From Candidatus Woesearchaeota archaeon (lineage in GTDB: Archaea > Nanobdellota > Nanobdellia > Woesearchaeales > GW2011-AR9), in NCBI GenBank assembly GCA_018302605.1, contig JAGVZN010000031.1, positions 1 to 34,952 on the forward strand: 34,952 nt of DNA. The letters are read 5' to 3'. Positions 22,796-33,797 of the stretch are shown piece after piece; the stretch's first letter is position 1, and each line of letters starts with the position of its first letter. The notes beneath the pieces were generated by a model, which saw only the letters and a list, made by a program, of their open reading frames with translations, was not told the DNA's origin and did no database searches. A program made the position numbers and the translations under genes.

Positions 22796-24112
22796 ATGTT
22801 CAAAAGAGGACAGGTAACGGTTTTGATAATTATAGGTATACTGATGTTATTTCTCACTGCCGGCCTCCTGTTTGTTGTTAAAAGTGTAACCACTGAGAAA
22901 GCTGAAACCGAGCGGGAAGTAATCGTTGAATCTTCTGAATTTAATTCAATAAACCTGTTTATTAATCATTGTTTGGAAAAGACTTCAAATGAGGGCCTGC
23001 AGTTTGTTAGTTTTAGGGGGGGGTATTATCATGTTCCTGAACCCGCCGAAGATCAGATTTTTGTTAAGATCCCCTATTATTTTGATCTCGGCCAGAAACA
23101 TTTCCCCACAAAAGAAGATATTGCCGACCAAATCGGACTCTATATTGAAGACAACATGAAAACATGCCTCAATGATTTTGTTGTTTTCAAGGATCAAGGC
23201 TTCCATTTTGTGGAAGAAGAGATGAACGCAGATGTTCAATTAGGAAAAACTGTTCGTGTTGAACTAGATTATCCACTTCAAACACAAAAAGCAGAGTCGA
23301 TAAAAGAATTCCGCGAGTTTTCTTATCTGCTTCCGGTTAATTTTGAACATATCTATTCAATTATTGATCAAACCGTTTTTGAGCAGGAAAAAAATGTCAA
23401 TTTTGTCCCTTTGGGCCATCTTTCTGCCGCTTCCCAAGAAAATGATTTCACCTTTGAAGTAAGCTATCTTGATGATGATGTTGTGGTATATTCCTATCTT
23501 TTTGAGCAGTACCGAATCGACAGAAAAGAATATGTTTTTGTTTTTGCTAATCGTTACGATTGGCCGGAATTGGCAGCCACGGAAGAGCTAGATTATGCTC
23601 AAGAAGTACATGATCAGCGTTGTTTAGTGGGAGATATTTGTTCTTACAATCTGAACATCTATCAGGACCCATTTAGATTCGAAGATTATACCGTGATATT
23701 TAACATCTCTGCTCAGGGGAAGATTGAGTTTACCCCCCAGCAGAAAGATGTCGGAACGCATAATATTTTAGTAAGGGTAAGCGATTCTCCGGGAAAAGAG
23801 AAATTCTTGTCTTTTGCTCTCAACATTGAATCTTTAGCAGAAAAGCCGGAACTAAAAATAATTCCCAGTCAAGAAGCCGCAGTTAATCAGGAATTTACCT
23901 ATCAAGTACAATTAGAGAAAGTAATGGGTGGGGTTGTCTTTTCAGATGACACTGATTTATTTGACATCGATGAAACCGGTTTAATAACCTTCACGCCAAC
24001 GGCAGAAGCAGTTGGCTTTCATATTGTTGAAATAACCGTACAGAAAGGAGAACTTACTGACACAAAATGGATGTATTTAACAGTACTGAACACGGTGCAA
24101 AATGAAGAATAG
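22796..24112 (+). CDS. Surface protein with pilin-like N-terminus and Ig/cadherin-like domains
   Basis: 438 residues. MFKRGQVTVLIIIGILMLFL is a short basic leader plus hydrophobic helix of the kind found on archaeal pilin-like or N-anchored surface proteins in DPANN genomes (K-R-G-Q-[VI]-T). The middle (40-280) is unrecognised. The C-terminal ~170 residues look like two consecutive cadherin/Ig-like repeats, each ending GKIEFTPQQKDVGTHNILVR or GLITFTPTAEAVGFHIVEIT, with the typical 'x-F-T-P-x-x-x-x-V-G-x-H' ending. It probably projects from the cell envelope. The next gene starts inside its last codons (11-bp overlap), so the two are translationally coupled and likely act together. Confidence 0.7.
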   Translation: MFKRGQVTVLIIIGILMLFLTAGLLFVVKSVTTEKAETEREVIVESSEFNSINLFINHCLEKTSNEGLQFVSFRGGYYHVPEPAEDQIFVKIPYYFDLGQKHFPTKEDIADQIGLYIEDNMKTCLNDFVVFKDQGFHFVEEEMNADVQLGKTVRVELDYPLQTQKAESIKEFREFSYLLPVNFEHIYSIIDQTVFEQEKNVNFVPLGHLSAASQENDFTFEVSYLDDDVVVYSYLFEQYRIDRKEYVFVFANRYDWPELAATEELDYAQEVHDQRCLVGDICSYNLNIYQDPFRFEDYTVIFNISAQGKIEFTPQQKDVGTHNILVRVSDSPGKEKFLSFALNIESLAEKPELKIIPSQEAAVNQEFTYQVQLEKVMGGVVFSDDTDLFDIDETGLITFTPTAEAVGFHIVEITVQKGELTDTKWMYLTVLNTVQNEE

Positions 24113-27100
24113 ATGGTGTAGCGTGAAAGACAGACTCTTATTATTACTATTGATATCTGTTGTAATCATCGTGATTTTTGCTCCTGTTGTCTCTGCCCAA
24201 TGCCCGGAAGGACAGGTCTGTCCACCAGAACCGCAGCAAGCATACTCTTATAACCAATTTCAACAAGATTATGCCAAAGATCCCGCCTTAGCTGCTCAAA
24301 AATATCCCGCTTATTATCTGAAGCACATCGGCGAAAAACCAGAAGAAGTGGCTAAAAATCCGCAGGCCTATGAAAACGCAGTTAAGCAAGATGTTAAATA
24401 TATCAATCAAAATAAAGATGCGTTTAAGAGTTATGCGCAGACTAAATCCATCCATTTTAGTGCCATCGTAGGAGATTTGAAGAGTTTTGACGTTGAAACA
24501 GGAACGATAGAAACCAAAGGGACCGCCGGACAGACAGTAACTACTTTTTCTTTTGCTCATGTCAAAGTATTAGCCGTGTTTTTTGGGGGAGAAAATTTTA
24601 AAATAAATCAAGAAGGGGAATTAGTCTACGACCACCGCGATCTCTCACGTTGGCGGGAAGTCGCAATCAGCGGCAAGATTGTAACGGAAGAAAGTGCGAT
24701 CTACGTCACAAATGGTAAATACCGGGTGGCAAAAGAGTTGATAGCAGTAGAACTCTCTGGAAACAATCGCGGGCGATTGGTCAGTGGTTGTAAATCTTTC
24801 GATAGTAAAAATTGCGGCCTCATTGAAGTGGAAGCAGTAAGTTCTCCGGTGAAATTGCCGCAAGGAGTTCTCCTCAGTGGAAAAGCGCTTCTCGTTTCTT
24901 CACTTGACGTGGATCTGCAGAAAGATTCTCGGTATCTCAACGAGCAGGGAACTCAATTTAGCGGGACAAAAAAAACCAGAATAACTACTGTAGTAAATGG
25001 TTGCCTGGTTATAATCCATAGCTGTATCGAAGAAAGTAAGCCCTGGTTCGATGGCGTAGATGAACTCGGACGTGTTAAAGACCCTGAAAAATTAGTCTCA
25101 TCGGGAATGATCATCCATGCGCGCGATAGCAATGAAGTAACAGTTGAGGCAAAAGACGGGCTTTACAAGAAGATAATCGTAAAACAGATCAGCGAGAATC
25201 TGCCCAGAGTTCTTGTTGGAGAAATAGACGGAAAAAAATTGTATATCACCAAATCTGGTGGATTTGAATATGAAGATGGAGGCTCGGTGAGGACCCGTGA
25301 TGTTGCTGAAAAAGTACAAAAACATCCTAACTATGCAGCTGCTCAAACAGAAGCCAGTGCATTGCCTGTCGAAGCCACAAAAGTTGATTTGAGAATAGTA
25401 AAGCCTGACGGTTCAAAATCAAAGATTGTTTTTAGCAAGGATCTGCCGGTGGCGCAAGGCGAGTTAGCTGGCTTGCAAACCAATATTGGTCATGTCTTTG
25501 AGGATATCGGTAGAATACCCTGGACTATCTATAATGGCAAAGGTTCTCCCGCTACAAAAGGAAAATTAACCAAAGAATGGCTTCCCCTCCGCGTGGCGGG
25601 ATTGGCTTATGAACCGGGAAGAGAAGAAATGTCTTTAATATTGGACTCCATTGATTATTTAACATCTCCTGAGACAAAAGTAATTCTACGACGTTCACAG
25701 TCAGCAGATCTCGAAACATTAGAACAAGTGCTGGATAAATATAGGCCAGAAAGATTCGAGATTGAGAGGTATTACAAGCTCGATGAGGCTGGTCTTTTAT
25801 ACACTGATTCTGGTCTTTTATATGACGATAACCTCGCGGCAAAAATAAACATTTTGGCAAAAATAAACCTTTTAGATGCAACTGATTCCCCCGCAATGAT
25901 AGAACTTCAACAAAAAATGATTGAGAGGATCAGTGTCTCCGGCAAAAACTTGGGCATGCTTCTCGAAGCTACGCGTGGTCGAGAAAAATTACAAGAAGAA
26001 GTACTTCGTAAACTGGATTATATCTCCGACCCTGGTTCTGCTTTGAATCGGGTGGATTCCAACGATTTAAGAAAGGTTATTATCGAGAAAACAAAAACGA
26101 TTGAGATTCGATACGACGAAAATCCATATCCACTAACGCATTACTTCGAGGAATTACGGAAACTGGATCCAGAATTGCAGGAATTGGCAGTCGGTAATTT
26201 AGATTTCAATACGGGTATTTTTGTGCATCACTATCACGCTGGCGAGGCATTGAGAAGAACAATAGAATTCTATAAAGATGAGCCGGAGAAGATGAATGCC
26301 CTTTTAAAACGAATGCCAGCGAGAGAAGATATGGGCTTTAACCCGGAAGGGTTCAGGATTATTTTCTTCGACAAAGAGTTTCAGGAAAAAACAAAGGATC
26401 TTGATTTCGCCAATAAATATTCAGTTGCTTATACAGCTCAACGATATTTAGATCAACGGGGAACGTGGATGCCTGACGATAGAACGGCAGCACTTAATGT
26501 AATCATGGAGCATCGTGAACGTTTTTCTAAGCAAGTGATCTTGGATGAAAACACGTATTATATCCCGATCACGCACGACGAAGAGAGATTTGAAAACGCA
26601 CGAATGGTACAACTGGCTCGTGATTCTGGAGTCAAAGACATCCCCAGCCAAAATCTGAAAGGAGTTGAGTCTAAGAACTTATTTTTGGCTTATGTTGAAG
26701 AAAGCAGAGAGAAAGGAAAAACAACGATCCACTTTAACGGCCATGGCGGTCCTAATCACCAATGGCTTTCCGTAGGTCAAGCTGGAGTTGAAACATCTGA
26801 TGCTTTGAGAATACCGGAAGCCGTCAGTTATGTGGAGTTCGGAGATGCTCTTGCCGGGAGGGGAAATTTAGGAGAAGTTACGGTGATGATCGATTCCTGC
26901 TATAGTAAAGACTTTACGGATAAATTATATCATTATCTTCATATGGTCAAAGGAGTGAAAGATATGCCAACGGTCATTACGGAGACGAATCGAGGCCAAG
27001 TTGGTTGGGTAAATAGATTCGAATCTGTTTTGGAGAAAGTTCATCAGCCAGGCCAGCCTCTGACCGGGGCAAATATTTTCAAAGCCGAATCAGAAACGTT

Positions 27101-27338
27101 TTTCCGGCAGGATCTTACCGTTACGATGCCGGTCGTGAGCGAGGAAGAAGCCGCGTTCTCTCAGCCGGAAACGCCCGGAGTTCTCGATCTAGGCTCTCCC
27201 TTTGACGACGGAGCGGCAGAACTGCCGCAAAAACCCCCAAAAGAACCGTCTGAATTAAAACCCGGCGATTTACCGCTGACCGTCATCGAGATTTCAGAGA
27301 CTGAACAAGAGATGGAAGATACGTTGGCAGGAAGTTAG
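24102..27338 (+). CDS. Large secreted protein with C-terminal clan CD cysteine-protease-like domain
   Basis: 1078 residues. Signal peptide: basic start, LLLLLLISVVIIVIFAPVV, then SAQCPEGQVCPP. Residues 30-800 show no known family; long charged and beta-rich stretches and several helix-rich repeats suggest a multi-domain extracellular protein. At the C-terminus, KTTIHFNGHGGPNHQWLS (His881) and, 52 residues on, EVTVMIDSCYSKDF (Cys933) form the His/Cys pair of clan CD peptidases (caspase, legumain, gingipain, clostripain type: 'h-h-x-x-x-G-H-G' and 'h-h-D-[SA]-C-[YFH]-S'). A Pro/acid-rich tail follows. It overlaps the pilin-like gene by 11 bp. Enzymatic activity is inferred. Confidence 0.7.
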   Translation: MKNRWCSVKDRLLLLLLISVVIIVIFAPVVSAQCPEGQVCPPEPQQAYSYNQFQQDYAKDPALAAQKYPAYYLKHIGEKPEEVAKNPQAYENAVKQDVKYINQNKDAFKSYAQTKSIHFSAIVGDLKSFDVETGTIETKGTAGQTVTTFSFAHVKVLAVFFGGENFKINQEGELVYDHRDLSRWREVAISGKIVTEESAIYVTNGKYRVAKELIAVELSGNNRGRLVSGCKSFDSKNCGLIEVEAVSSPVKLPQGVLLSGKALLVSSLDVDLQKDSRYLNEQGTQFSGTKKTRITTVVNGCLVIIHSCIEESKPWFDGVDELGRVKDPEKLVSSGMIIHARDSNEVTVEAKDGLYKKIIVKQISENLPRVLVGEIDGKKLYITKSGGFEYEDGGSVRTRDVAEKVQKHPNYAAAQTEASALPVEATKVDLRIVKPDGSKSKIVFSKDLPVAQGELAGLQTNIGHVFEDIGRIPWTIYNGKGSPATKGKLTKEWLPLRVAGLAYEPGREEMSLILDSIDYLTSPETKVILRRSQSADLETLEQVLDKYRPERFEIERYYKLDEAGLLYTDSGLLYDDNLAAKINILAKINLLDATDSPAMIELQQKMIERISVSGKNLGMLLEATRGREKLQEEVLRKLDYISDPGSALNRVDSNDLRKVIIEKTKTIEIRYDENPYPLTHYFEELRKLDPELQELAVGNLDFNTGIFVHHYHAGEALRRTIEFYKDEPEKMNALLKRMPAREDMGFNPEGFRIIFFDKEFQEKTKDLDFANKYSVAYTAQRYLDQRGTWMPDDRTAALNVIMEHRERFSKQVILDENTYYIPITHDEERFENARMVQLARDSGVKDIPSQNLKGVESKNLFLAYVEESREKGKTTIHFNGHGGPNHQWLSVGQAGVETSDALRIPEAVSYVEFGDALAGRGNLGEVTVMIDSCYSKDFTDKLYHYLHMVKGVKDMPTVITETNRGQVGWVNRFESVLEKVHQPGQPLTGANIFKAESETFFRQDLTVTMPVVSEEEAAFSQPETPGVLDLGSPFDDGAAELPQKPPKEPSELKPGDLPLTVIEISETEQEMEDTLAGS

Positions 27339-28565: not shown

Positions 28566-28600
28566 TCTGGTTATGATCTTTTCTTCAACTTTGGTTAAGA

Positions 28601-28613
28601 GAAGAAAAAAGAG
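28601..28613 (-). terminator. T-rich transcript end of tRNA gene
   Basis: The minus strand reads CTCTTTTTTCTTC right after the tRNA discriminator base; short T runs of this kind end archaeal transcripts. Confidence 0.45.
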
Positions 28614-28754
28614 TAGCGGAGGGTGGACATTCAGAGAAACTGCGTTTTTTAGAAAAGATAACGCAGTTTCACATTTGAACCACCGATCTACGGGTTTCTA
28701 AGGATACTAAGGCCGTATGAGCCCGTCGGGTACTCCTAGCTTCCCTACTCCGCT
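28614..28754 (-). tRNA. Initiator tRNA-Met (CAT) with two introns
   Basis: On the minus strand: acceptor AGCGGAG with CTCCGCT, including the A1-U72 pair of initiators; spacer TA; D-arm GGGAAGCTAGGAGTACCC; anticodon stem ACGGG/CCCGT with the three G-C pairs of initiators; anticodon CAT (in CTCATA, 28721-28716); variable loop AGATC; T-arm GGTGG TTCAAAT CCACC. Between CTCATA and the last loop base are about 20 extra nt (28696-28715), the canonical 37/38 intron position. The T loop is followed by about 46 extra nt (28627-28672) that form a GAAACTGCGTT / AACGCAGTTTC hairpin before CCACC resumes: a second, non-canonical intron. Without them the tRNA is 75 nt. CCA is not encoded. The TATA box lies 26 nt upstream. 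Exact splice points are ambiguous by a few bases. Confidence 0.88.
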
Positions 28755-28774: not shown

Positions 28775-28785
28775 TTATTTAAAAA
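28775..28785 (-). promoter_or_regulatory. TATA box of initiator tRNA
   Basis: TTTTTAAATAA on the minus strand, preceded by an A/C-rich AAACC (BRE-like) and centred 26 nt before the tRNA 5' end at 28754. Confidence 0.65.
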
Positions 28786-28823
28786 GGTTTGGAAAAATAT
28801 TTTTGATAAAAAACATCTGAAGA

Positions 28824-29927: not shown

Positions 29928-29963
29928 ATTTTAGCCAGAATTCTGAATTGGACCTCACAAACA

Positions 29964-29971
29964 TTTATATA
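29964..29971 (+). promoter_or_regulatory. TATA box of sppA-subtilase operon
   Basis: TTTATATA centred 26 nt before the ATG at 29993. It excludes the in-frame TTG at 29948, which lies upstream of the box. Confidence 0.65.
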
Positions 29972-29992
29972 TCTCTTTTCATTCTTTTGTAC

Positions 29993-30928
29993 ATGGTAAA
30001 AGTGGTGGTGGAACGCAGGAGCAGAACAAAAGCGATCCTGTTGACTTTTGCCGCAGTTCTGTTCGTCATCTTTGTGATCATTCCTTTAAGCTTGGTCGTT
30101 TTTGACGGAAAGAAACTAGGAAATGTTGCGCTGATCCCCGTCGTCGGAGTAATTACTGGTGACGGCAGTCCGGCTCCATTCGGCTCCTCTTCGGTGTCTT
30201 CTCGGGATATCGTTGCTTTTATTGAAGAGGCTGATGCCAACCCGGGATTAACCGCGATCGTCCTGGAAATTAATTCTCCCGGCGGCTCGGCGGTGGCATC
30301 AGATGAAATCGCCGCTGCAGTCAAAAAAGCAGAAAAACCGGTCGTCGCTTTAATCAGGGAAGCCGGTGCTTCCGGTGCCTATTGGATCGCTTCAGCGGCA
30401 GATCATGTTGTCGCCAACAAGATGTCGATCACGGGAAGTATCGGCGTGATCTCTTCCTATCTGGAATTCAGCGGCTTGATGGAGAAATACGGCATACGCT
30501 ATGAACCATTGACTTCCGGCCAGTATAAAGACGTCGGTAATCCTTATCAGCCTTTAGACAGCAAAAAGAAAGCGCTCTTACAGGGAAAACTAGACAAGAT
30601 CCACGCTTATTTTATTGAAGAAGTTGCCCGCAATCGTCAGCTCTCGGAAGATCATGTCCGGAAATTGGCAACTGGTGAATTCTTTTTAGGCGTGGAAGCC
30701 AAAGAACTTGGGCTGGTTGATGAGCTTGGGGACCAACAGACGGTCCAAACATATCTTCGGGAGAAGCATGGCCTGCTGGACATCGTCTATGTCCCATTTG
30801 AAAAAGAGAGGGGCTTTTTTGAGATGCTTGCTGGCATCTCCTCTTCGTTTTCGTTTGAAATTGGAAAAGGAATTGGGGCGGCGTTCATGGATACTCAAAG
30901 TCCAGAGACATTGATGCTGTTATCATGA
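29993..30928 (+). CDS. sppA: Signal peptide peptidase SppA (S49 family)
   Basis: 311 residues from the ATG at 29993, decided by the TATA spacing. One N-terminal transmembrane helix (AILLTFAAVLFVIFVIIPLS) anchors an extracytoplasmic serine protease domain. Motifs: VVGVITGDG, TAIVLEINSPGGSA, AGASGAYWIASAAD with nucleophile Ser127, ITGSIGVISSY, and SGQYKDVGNPY with the general base Lys179. This is the short single-domain archaeal/Bacillus type, which degrades cleaved signal peptides in the membrane. The subtilase gene starts one base after its stop, so the two form an operon of membrane or exported proteases. Confidence 0.93.
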   Translation: MVKVVVERRSRTKAILLTFAAVLFVIFVIIPLSLVVFDGKKLGNVALIPVVGVITGDGSPAPFGSSSVSSRDIVAFIEEADANPGLTAIVLEINSPGGSAVASDEIAAAVKKAEKPVVALIREAGASGAYWIASAADHVVANKMSITGSIGVISSYLEFSGLMEKYGIRYEPLTSGQYKDVGNPYQPLDSKKKALLQGKLDKIHAYFIEEVARNRQLSEDHVRKLATGEFFLGVEAKELGLVDELGDQQTVQTYLREKHGLLDIVYVPFEKERGFFEMLAGISSSFSFEIGKGIGAAFMDTQSPETLMLLS

Positions 30929-30929
30929 G

Positions 30930-33797
30930 ATGAAACGTGAACGGTTTATCTGGTGGACACTTGTTGTGGGTTTTTTGCTCGTGCCACTTGTTTCCGCCGC
31001 CGTTATTGATCCAGACATTGTTGCGGCGTTGGAAGAAAGGGAGTCGGTCTCCGTGATTGTGACATTGTATGATGATACTAAGGCCAGCGGCACGACCGCA
31101 AGTGGTAAATCTGAGGACACTGAGGACATTTTAAATAAATTAGATGCCGCCAAAGATATTTCTGCGGGCAGTTTTGAATTGGCTTATCAATTTGAATCGA
31201 TCAAGGGCTTTTCCGGAACGGCAACAAAAGAAGGCGTCCATGCGCTCGCCGAGGATAGCAACGTCAAATCTATCGAATACGATCGTCCGTTGCGCTTGTT
31301 ATTAAGCAATTCCCGTCCAAAAATCAATGCCGACGAAGTCCAGGTCGTCTCTCTTGCGGGGGAATTTATCAACGGTACTGGGGAAACAGTCTGCATCATT
31401 GATACGGGTATTGATTATACCCATCCGGCGTTTGGCAGTTGTACGCTAGAAATGGTCCAAGATGGTTTGTGTCCGGGAGTGATTAGCGGAGTTGATATTG
31501 CTGATGATGATGACGATCCACAGGATACGGATGGCCATGGAACGCATGTTGCTGGCATCGTCGCTTCAAGGGATGGAACGTACAGGGGGATTGCGCCGGG
31601 AGCGCAGATCGCTGCGGTGAAAGTGTTTGCGGACAATTCTGTCGTCGCTTCCACCTCTGATGTTATCCTGGGTGTCGAATGGTGTCAAAATCAATCGTCT
31701 GCATTGAATATCTCCGTGATTTCGCTAAGCTTGGGGGATGATGAAGTATCCAGCGCCAGTAATTGTGACAGCGACCCCCTGGCGGCAGTCCTTAACGCGG
31801 CAGTTGGTTCCGGTTTCTTTGTCGATGCCGCTTCGGGAAATGATGGTAATTCTGCAGGAATCGCCGCTCCATCCTGTGCTTCCAATGTTACCAGCGTCGG
31901 CTCGGTAAACAACGGCGATGCCGTTTCCAGCTTCTCCAACAGTGCAGCCAATCTTGATCTGCTGGCGCCGGGCCACGCGATCAAGTCGGTGAAATTAGGC
32001 GGAGGTTTTGTGACCTATGCTGGAACATCCATGGCGGCGCCGCACGTGGCCGGAGCAGCAGCTCTGTTTTTACAGTATTGGCAGAAAGCATATGATCTCG
32101 TACCGACAGCTCAGCAGATTGAAGATAAACTGAAAGCAACCGGAAAGCAGATTACGGATTCCCGAAATGGCTTGGTCTTTTCGCGTATTGACATCCGGGA
32201 AGCGCTGCGTCCAATTCTTTCTTTCACAGAAGAGAGCATCTCCAATGGCACTATTCTCGGAGAGGAAACTGTCTCGATCGAAATCAGTTCGGATGTTCCG
32301 TTGGATACGGCCGTTCTGCAGTGGGATTACGGCAACGGCAGTCGTGAAAACCTGACGATGAATGCGTTGAATACGACCTCATTCCAATCTAATCTGACGG
32401 ATATGCCTGCGGGAAATTATACCTATTCTATTTTTGGCAACGATTCCGGGAATTTTCTCGGTGTAAGCACCGAAAGAATATTGTTTGTTGATCTGACTGC
32501 TCCGGAAATGACGCTGGTTATACCAGGCGTTAATCTGACCTATTCTGCGGCTTTTACCATAAATGTCTCTTTTGTCGATCAATTTGAACTCGCTCAGGCC
32601 AGATATTCTGTACTGAATGCTTCTTCCGGGGCGATCGAAGATGACCTCATTCTCTTCAATGATACTTCTTTCTTTACGTGGTCTAAAATAATCAATGTCT
32701 TTAATTCCACCTATCCTAATGGTAATTATACTCTTCTTGTCTTTGCTCAAGATGGCGTCGGCAATGAAGCGAATGTCTCACGTCTTTTTACCGTCTCCAA
32801 CACTCCGCCCGTTAATATTACGATCACTCCTGCCAATGGTTCGGTAATTGAAGTTGGTGGGCTACAAAGTTTCACGGCAACAGCTGTTGACGCTGAAGAC
32901 GATACTTTAACATACACCTGGGATTTCGGCGATGGCGGGACAGCAGAAATACAGAATACTACCTATCTCTTTAATGCAACGGGAACATTCCCGGTCGTCC
33001 TGACAATCAATGACGGTCGGAATATTGTCGCCACTAATCAATCAATTTCTATCAATGACACGGTCGGTCCGACATCATCATTGACCTATGATCTCGAACA
33101 TCATCTGCAACGCGACGGACAGACGCAGACGATCACGTCTACTTCTTTTGATTATTCTGGTGTCTCCAATGCCACACTGCTCTTCAACAATCTTAAACAG
33201 AATGCCAGCTGTTCGGCAGCAAAGACTACTTTGGATTGTTCTTGGGGATTGGCTAGTCTTTCCGTGGGATCATTTGCTTTTACGTTGAACGTCACGGATA
33301 ATTTCACATCTTCCCATACTGTTTCACAAGAATATTCGTTTACGGTCACTTCTTGTTCCGATAGTTTGGAGAATGGTAATGAAGACGGCGTAGATTGCGG
33401 CGGTTCATGCAGTGCATCCTGCAGTAGTTCTTCCGGGGGAGAGAGCGGAAGTAGTTCTGGCGGCGGAGGCGGCGGTGGCGGAAGTAGCGAGAGTGCAGTA
33501 AGTAGTGCGGCGAGTACCTCGGCCTCATCAGAAGAAAGAAATGCCCCTGCAGAAGAATCGGCAACAACCCCCGAACTATCCATTGCATCCGCCGTCGCGC
33601 AAGAACAAGCTGCTGGCGAAAGTGCATCACCAGGTTCGGCCCTGACAGGGGGTGCTATCGCCACGACGGACACACTGCGAACGTCTTACAAGAAGCTGGC
33701 CTTTGGGCTGCTCGGTGGTGTTGCCGGAGTTCTGCTGCTGGTTTTTGCTGTCGGCACATGGGTGCGGAGAAGAAGAGAACGATTTGATTGGGAGTGA
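30930..33797 (+). CDS. Membrane-anchored subtilisin-like protease (S8) with PKD domain
   Basis: 955 residues. Signal peptide (WWTLVVGFLLVPLVSAA), an I9-like propeptide (about 35-118), and the S8 catalytic domain with Asp158 (CIIDTGIDYTHP), His203 (DTDGHGTHVAGIV), Asn304 (ASGNDGNS) and Ser367 (GTSMAAPHVAG). Beta-sandwich repeats follow, including a PKD domain (TYTWDFGDGGTAEI, FPVVLTINDG). A Cys motif NGNEDGVDCGGSCSASC, a Gly/Ser-rich linker and a C-terminal helix with a basic RRRRERFDWE stop complete it. Many N-x-[ST] sites. The protein is predicted to be exported and held in the membrane by its C-terminus with the protease outside. Coupled to sppA. Confidence 0.93.
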   Translation: MKRERFIWWTLVVGFLLVPLVSAAVIDPDIVAALEERESVSVIVTLYDDTKASGTTASGKSEDTEDILNKLDAAKDISAGSFELAYQFESIKGFSGTATKEGVHALAEDSNVKSIEYDRPLRLLLSNSRPKINADEVQVVSLAGEFINGTGETVCIIDTGIDYTHPAFGSCTLEMVQDGLCPGVISGVDIADDDDDPQDTDGHGTHVAGIVASRDGTYRGIAPGAQIAAVKVFADNSVVASTSDVILGVEWCQNQSSALNISVISLSLGDDEVSSASNCDSDPLAAVLNAAVGSGFFVDAASGNDGNSAGIAAPSCASNVTSVGSVNNGDAVSSFSNSAANLDLLAPGHAIKSVKLGGGFVTYAGTSMAAPHVAGAAALFLQYWQKAYDLVPTAQQIEDKLKATGKQITDSRNGLVFSRIDIREALRPILSFTEESISNGTILGEETVSIEISSDVPLDTAVLQWDYGNGSRENLTMNALNTTSFQSNLTDMPAGNYTYSIFGNDSGNFLGVSTERILFVDLTAPEMTLVIPGVNLTYSAAFTINVSFVDQFELAQARYSVLNASSGAIEDDLILFNDTSFFTWSKIINVFNSTYPNGNYTLLVFAQDGVGNEANVSRLFTVSNTPPVNITITPANGSVIEVGGLQSFTATAVDAEDDTLTYTWDFGDGGTAEIQNTTYLFNATGTFPVVLTINDGRNIVATNQSISINDTVGPTSSLTYDLEHHLQRDGQTQTITSTSFDYSGVSNATLLFNNLKQNASCSAAKTTLDCSWGLASLSVGSFAFTLNVTDNFTSSHTVSQEYSFTVTSCSDSLENGNEDGVDCGGSCSASCSSSSGGESGSSSGGGGGGGGSSESAVSSAASTSASSEERNAPAEESATTPELSIASAVAQEQAAGESASPGSALTGGAIATTDTLRTSYKKLAFGLLGGVAGVLLLVFAVGTWVRRRRERFDWE

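Follow-up and report, generated by a model that had tools for sequence, protein, structure and literature searches.

The window, by which we mean the whole 34,952-nt stretch of DNA analysed here, carries on its minus strand what looks like an archaeal initiator tRNA interrupted twice, in the anticodon loop and in the T loop. We wondered whether such a locus is a working gene, how unusual it is, and which splicing endonuclease could process it. The initial annotation had proposed an initiator tRNA-Met with inserts of about 20 and 46 nt at 28614-28754; these coordinates are exact, and the gene reads on the minus strand, with A1 at 28754. The features are as follows.

28778..28792, minus: BRE/TATA-like promoter CCAAACCTTTTTAAA, 24-38 nt upstream of the tRNA
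28614..28754, minus: initiator tRNA-Met(CAT) gene, 141 nt with its two introns, running from A1 at 28754 to A73 at 28614 (from the spliced cloverleaf and orthologues in relatives)
28716..28754, minus: exon 1, positions 1-37
28696..28715, minus: intron 1 at 37/38, 20 nt, CGGCCTTAGTATCCTTAGAA, with a weak bulge-helix-bulge (BHB) motif
28674..28695, minus: exon 2, positions 38-59
28628..28673, minus: intron 2, 46 nt, TGTGAAACTGCGTTATCTTTTCTAAAAAACGCAGTTTCTCTGAATG, in the T loop at 59/60, with a strict BHB and an 11-bp hairpin
28614..28627, minus: exon 3, positions 60-73
28599..28613, minus: T-rich run CTCTTTTTTCTTCTC directly 3' of the gene, judged from its sequence a probable terminator

Read from 28754 to 28614, the minus strand gives AGCGGAG TA GGG...CCC G ACGGG CT CAT A (20 nt) A CCCGT AGATC GGTGG TTCAAA (46 nt) T CCACC CTCCGCT A, and the CCA end is not encoded. 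Removal of both inserts leaves 75 nt that fold into a perfect cloverleaf, named tRNA-Met(CAT) by ARAGORN, with predicted junctions CATAACCC and TTCAAATCCACC, the latter being the junction without the 46-nt segment. The pair A1-U72 and the GGG/CCC at the base of the anticodon stem (three G-C pairs), together with the CAT anticodon, identify this tRNA as an initiator, as had been proposed. From sequence alone the ends of each intron can be shifted by 1 nt, with an identical product either way; the register given here is the one selected by BHB geometry. In its unspliced form the gene escapes detection: ARAGORN reports no tRNA in it or anywhere else in the window, and the Rfam tRNA model gives no match to the locus. 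Since both tools miss what is probably the sole initiator, genomes of this kind can look initiator-less.

The two-intron arrangement is not a product of chance: the same gene with both intron sites occurs in several relatives, and the BHB pairing lies above all controls. Each of the 16 initiator genes inspected, ours among them, has about 20-40 nt upstream a BRE/TATA-like element that reads CAAA..TTTTTAAA or nearly so. Records from the same genus and the same family carry the label Candidatus Woesearchaeota, in agreement with the DPANN origin suspected at the outset. Searches of the genome, which is about 90% complete, for a second initiator-like sequence returned none, either with a tight pattern or with a loose one that allowed three mismatches; an intact second copy could sit in the missing part.

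The T-loop intron forms a strict BHB, with two 3-nt bulges around a 4-bp helix and both flanking helices present. The 5-bp T stem (GGTGG/CCACC) is the outer helix, positions 54-57 (UUCA) pair with UGAA near the 3' end of the intron to make the central helix, and the bulges on either side of it are AA/U and UG/U. Further in, a G-C pair and one mismatch lead to an 11-bp stem, the hairpin already noticed in the initial annotation. The further suggestion that a T-loop intron implies relaxed BHB recognition does not hold, since the T-loop motif is of textbook form; the imperfect motif is the one at 37/38.

This geometry is conserved. Among 38 initiator 59/60 introns from this order and other archaea, drawn from several lineages and not all independent by descent, at least three of the four central pairs form in 37 and all four in 30; a control with the register slid never reached four pairs, and the total of 143 pairs observed compares with a maximum of 82 in 2000 letter shuffles. 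With the T arm and intron as the query, relatives of intron 2 were found in initiators of two other genera (86% identity in G019, 80% in G014) and in non-initiator tRNAs (79% in G009, 75% in G055). In G009 and G055, the T loop is TGCAAAT and the pairing strand of the intron is TGCA, which turns UUCA/UGAA into UGCA/UGCA. Both sides of one central-helix pair have thus changed together, which is good evidence that the helix is under selection. We take the G055 tRNA for Thr(TGT); the ARAGORN call, made with the anticodon intron misplaced, is Ser. At the same 59/60 site, a genome of the same genus (G001) carries a 32-nt intron of unrelated sequence. A match of intron 2 to mir-1954 (E 0.079; 22.9 bits, where the cut-off is 99) was set aside as a chance match of the hairpin. 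At two of the related loci (L285 in G055 and L283 in G009) the T loops (TGCAAAT or TGCAACT) have G in place of the nearly universal U55; an uninterrupted neighbouring tRNA of G009 has G at this position too.

The splice sites at 37/38 are the less certain of the two, the motif there being poor. Its bulges are UA/C and AA/A, central pairs form at 32, 33 and 35 around a C34·U mismatch, and the inner helix has 2 bp; this falls outside the strict BHB definition and fits a relaxed one. Across the 23 initiators of the order that have a 37/38 intron, this gene included, pairing is found at position 32 in all 23, at 33 in 20, at 34 in 7 and at 35 in 13. In this gene, then, it is the canonical site that has the relaxed motif, contrary to what the initial annotation inferred.

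Two other accounts of the locus have to be set against these data. The 46 nt do form a stable hairpin, and could be imagined as an extended T loop kept in the mature tRNA; yet the ends of the segment make a conserved BHB far above controls, its length among relatives ranges from 23 to 83 nt with many relatives lacking it altogether, and its excision restores the standard initiator T loop UUCAAAU. We regard retention as extremely improbable. Hardly more plausible is a decaying or silent copy, with the intact initiator in the missing tenth of the genome. The 90% completeness leaves room for it, but every stem is intact, the promoter is conserved, and relatives have the same interrupted gene, with nearly always one initiator match per genome. 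It is very probable that the locus is a working initiator gene, and probably the only one, whose two-intron precursor is cut by the splicing endonuclease EndA and joined by RtcB.

In this proposed pathway, the precursor with both introns would be transcribed from its own TATA promoter. EndA would cut at 59/60 on the canonical BHB, with the T stem as outer helix and U54-A57 paired with UGAA, and would cut at 37/38 on the weaker motif as well. RtcB, for which the genome has one gene, would ligate the exons, giving a standard initiator of 75 nt that would next receive its CCA. Because positions 54-57 are tied up in the intron helix, the elbow between the D loop and T loop would be blocked until intron 2 is out, and would form only then.

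The initial annotation had considered an initiator T-loop intron to be unusual in such a genome, a view that the wider survey overturns. Ten initiators parsed in this order have a 59/60 intron, our gene and those of nine other genomes, four of which have a 37/38 intron as well. At least five initiators of the order have a T-arm intron at 53/54 instead (L027, L038, L060, L061 and L074). A wider scan covered genome contigs of 84,980 species and looked for initiators in which a base other than C comes after the T loop. It returned 101 stretches, about 60 of which are initiator tRNAs with a 59/60 intron (two or so doubtful) and about 36 of these carry a 37/38 intron too, all of them lower bounds because the pattern leaves out longer anticodon introns and T-loop introns with C as second base. 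Matches without a paired initiator, among them all bacterial ones, were discarded. The initiators belong to at least six archaeal lineages, in records labelled Lokiarchaeota, Thermoplasmata-like Euryarchaeota, Bathyarchaeota, Thermoproteota, Aenigmatarchaeota, Sigynarchaeota and Woesearchaeota. The two-intron initiator is thus a real gene of a kind common in archaea, and initiators with 59/60 introns are spread over much of the archaeal tree. Near-identical initiator genes with the same T-loop intron occur in two records labelled Sigynarchaeota and Thermococci (L103 and L142); one of these labels is probably wrong.

The intron positions themselves are familiar: a 2014 review (PMC4090602) lists tRNA introns at both 59/60 and 53/54, and Asgard archaea have intron-rich tRNA sets with non-canonical positions (PMC11291895). 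The 59/60 BHB introns described for archaea (PMC4090602) share position and geometry with ours and often accompany a 37/38 intron; nothing essential differs, except that here the host is an initiator tRNA of a Woesearchaeota-type genome. The initiators of Lokiarchaeota and of Thermoplasmata-like metagenome-assembled genomes are the same tRNA with the same two intron positions, whereas their intron sequences are unrelated by eye and their lineages differ.

Introns at 59/60 also occur in other tRNAs of the genome under study. At least 13 of its tRNA genes, the initiator included, have a 59/60 intron; as most were found by a pattern demanding GAA on the 3' side, pairing in those genes is not an independent test of the motif. 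The loci of the at least 12 further genes include L003, L005, L250, L253, L256, L266, L268, L269, L270 and L276. With the 59/60 intron removed, ARAGORN names 10 of the 13 tRNAs, and some of the names are unreliable because further introns are left in: the half-spliced initiator is called Ser. A 245-nt 'tRNA' (L265) joins two neighbouring genes and was left out of the count. Several 59/60 introns in different tRNAs start with CAGATGTCA or nearly so, and such related introns appear to be one family spread among different tRNAs of the genome. Intron transposition between tRNAs has been described in Thermoproteales (Fujishima et al. 2010, as cited in PMC4090602), where similar introns likewise occupy different tRNAs; our hosts differ in being Woesearchaeota-type genomes.

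The endonuclease survey that the initial annotation called for had an unexpected outcome: the residues of the broad type are there, in a single gene with no detectable β subunit and no CSL. The EndA gene (L010, 1474-2169, minus strand) encodes 231 aa, laid out as a variable charged N-terminus, PF02778 and PF01974, with a Tyr/His/Lys catalytic triad. Among proteins of solved structure, the nearest to it is the catalytic subunit of the Nanoarchaeum equitans (αβ)2 enzyme (PDB code 3IEY, E 9.5e-35), followed by the α4 enzyme of Methanocaldococcus jannaschii (1A79). At the recognition motif, VRWMRP corresponds to VSWKKP in N. equitans and TYVKP in M. jannaschii, and Arg and Trp occupy the recognition positions in all 30 aligned Woesearchaeota-type EndAs, as in N. 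equitans and as expected of the broad-specificity type. Sequence comparison with Thermofilum and Nitrosotenuis revealed no CSL insertion with its Lys, nor any CSL/ASL loop, in the Woesearchaeota-type proteins. With one N-terminal and one catalytic domain, the protein is also unlike the ε2 type, a three-unit fused protomer of about 390 aa; a single catalytic subunit gene is what the α4 type has. Woesearchaeota-type EndAs (this one and L202-L231) carry ahead of the N-terminal domain a variable, charged, Lys-rich extension that is extra relative to M. jannaschii EndA and could act as a stand-in for the CSL/ASL loop.

Non-canonical and relaxed introns have been paired with (αβ)2 or ε2 EndA, the broad ones with CSL or ASL, and α4 and α'2 enzymes with few, canonical introns (PMC4090602, PMC6379350). 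The EndA of this genome looks simpler than these rules predict. It resembles that of M. jannaschii in being a single gene with an N-terminal and a catalytic domain and no CSL/ASL; the latter, however, has no C-terminal Trp and is classed as narrow (PMC6379350), whereas the genome here has many non-canonical sites. In open-access literature, the scope of our search, we found no paper on Woesearchaeota EndA.

The rules would be kept if the enzyme were an ordinary (αβ)2 heteromer with a β subunit too divergent to see. In favour of this, the nearest solved relative is the catalytic half of just such an enzyme, with Trp at the same place, and PF01974 matches the compact Thermoproteus-type β only weakly (E 0.01), so that a very divergent or compact β could be missed. 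On the other hand, PF01974 does detect β in its positive controls (Thermofilum and Nitrosotenuis each give two EndA genes, and a Micrarchaeota genome gives the fused form), yet it finds a single EndA gene in every relative searched with three exceptions: one genome with none, one with a weak partial match, and one with the gene in two overlapping pieces. A β-profile search returned the α gene only in 40 of 40 genomes of at least 90% completeness, bar a weak match over 38 positions in G031 (E 0.14). Four regions with weak extra PF01974 matches were read as β candidates and rejected, none holding an EndA-like protein and one being TruD-like. A hidden β subunit is therefore possible and rather unlikely. 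From gene content, the likeliest reading is a homomeric, single-gene EndA with Arg and Trp, no β and no CSL/ASL, that would splice the non-canonical and relaxed introns of this heavily interrupted tRNA set; we hold it with about even confidence.

The finding is of value for the breadth of initiator T-loop introns that it brings out and for this endonuclease puzzle, which puts an old rule within reach of a test: do non-canonical tRNA introns need a heteromeric or loop-bearing endonuclease? If the reading is true, the published co-evolution rule would have an exception, and a homomeric Arg/Trp EndA would offer another way to broad substrate specificity. Within the window, the neighbours of the tRNA are a 1078-aa protein without a Pfam match (24102-27338), an S49 peptidase (29948-30928) and a subtilase with PKD domains (30930-33797).
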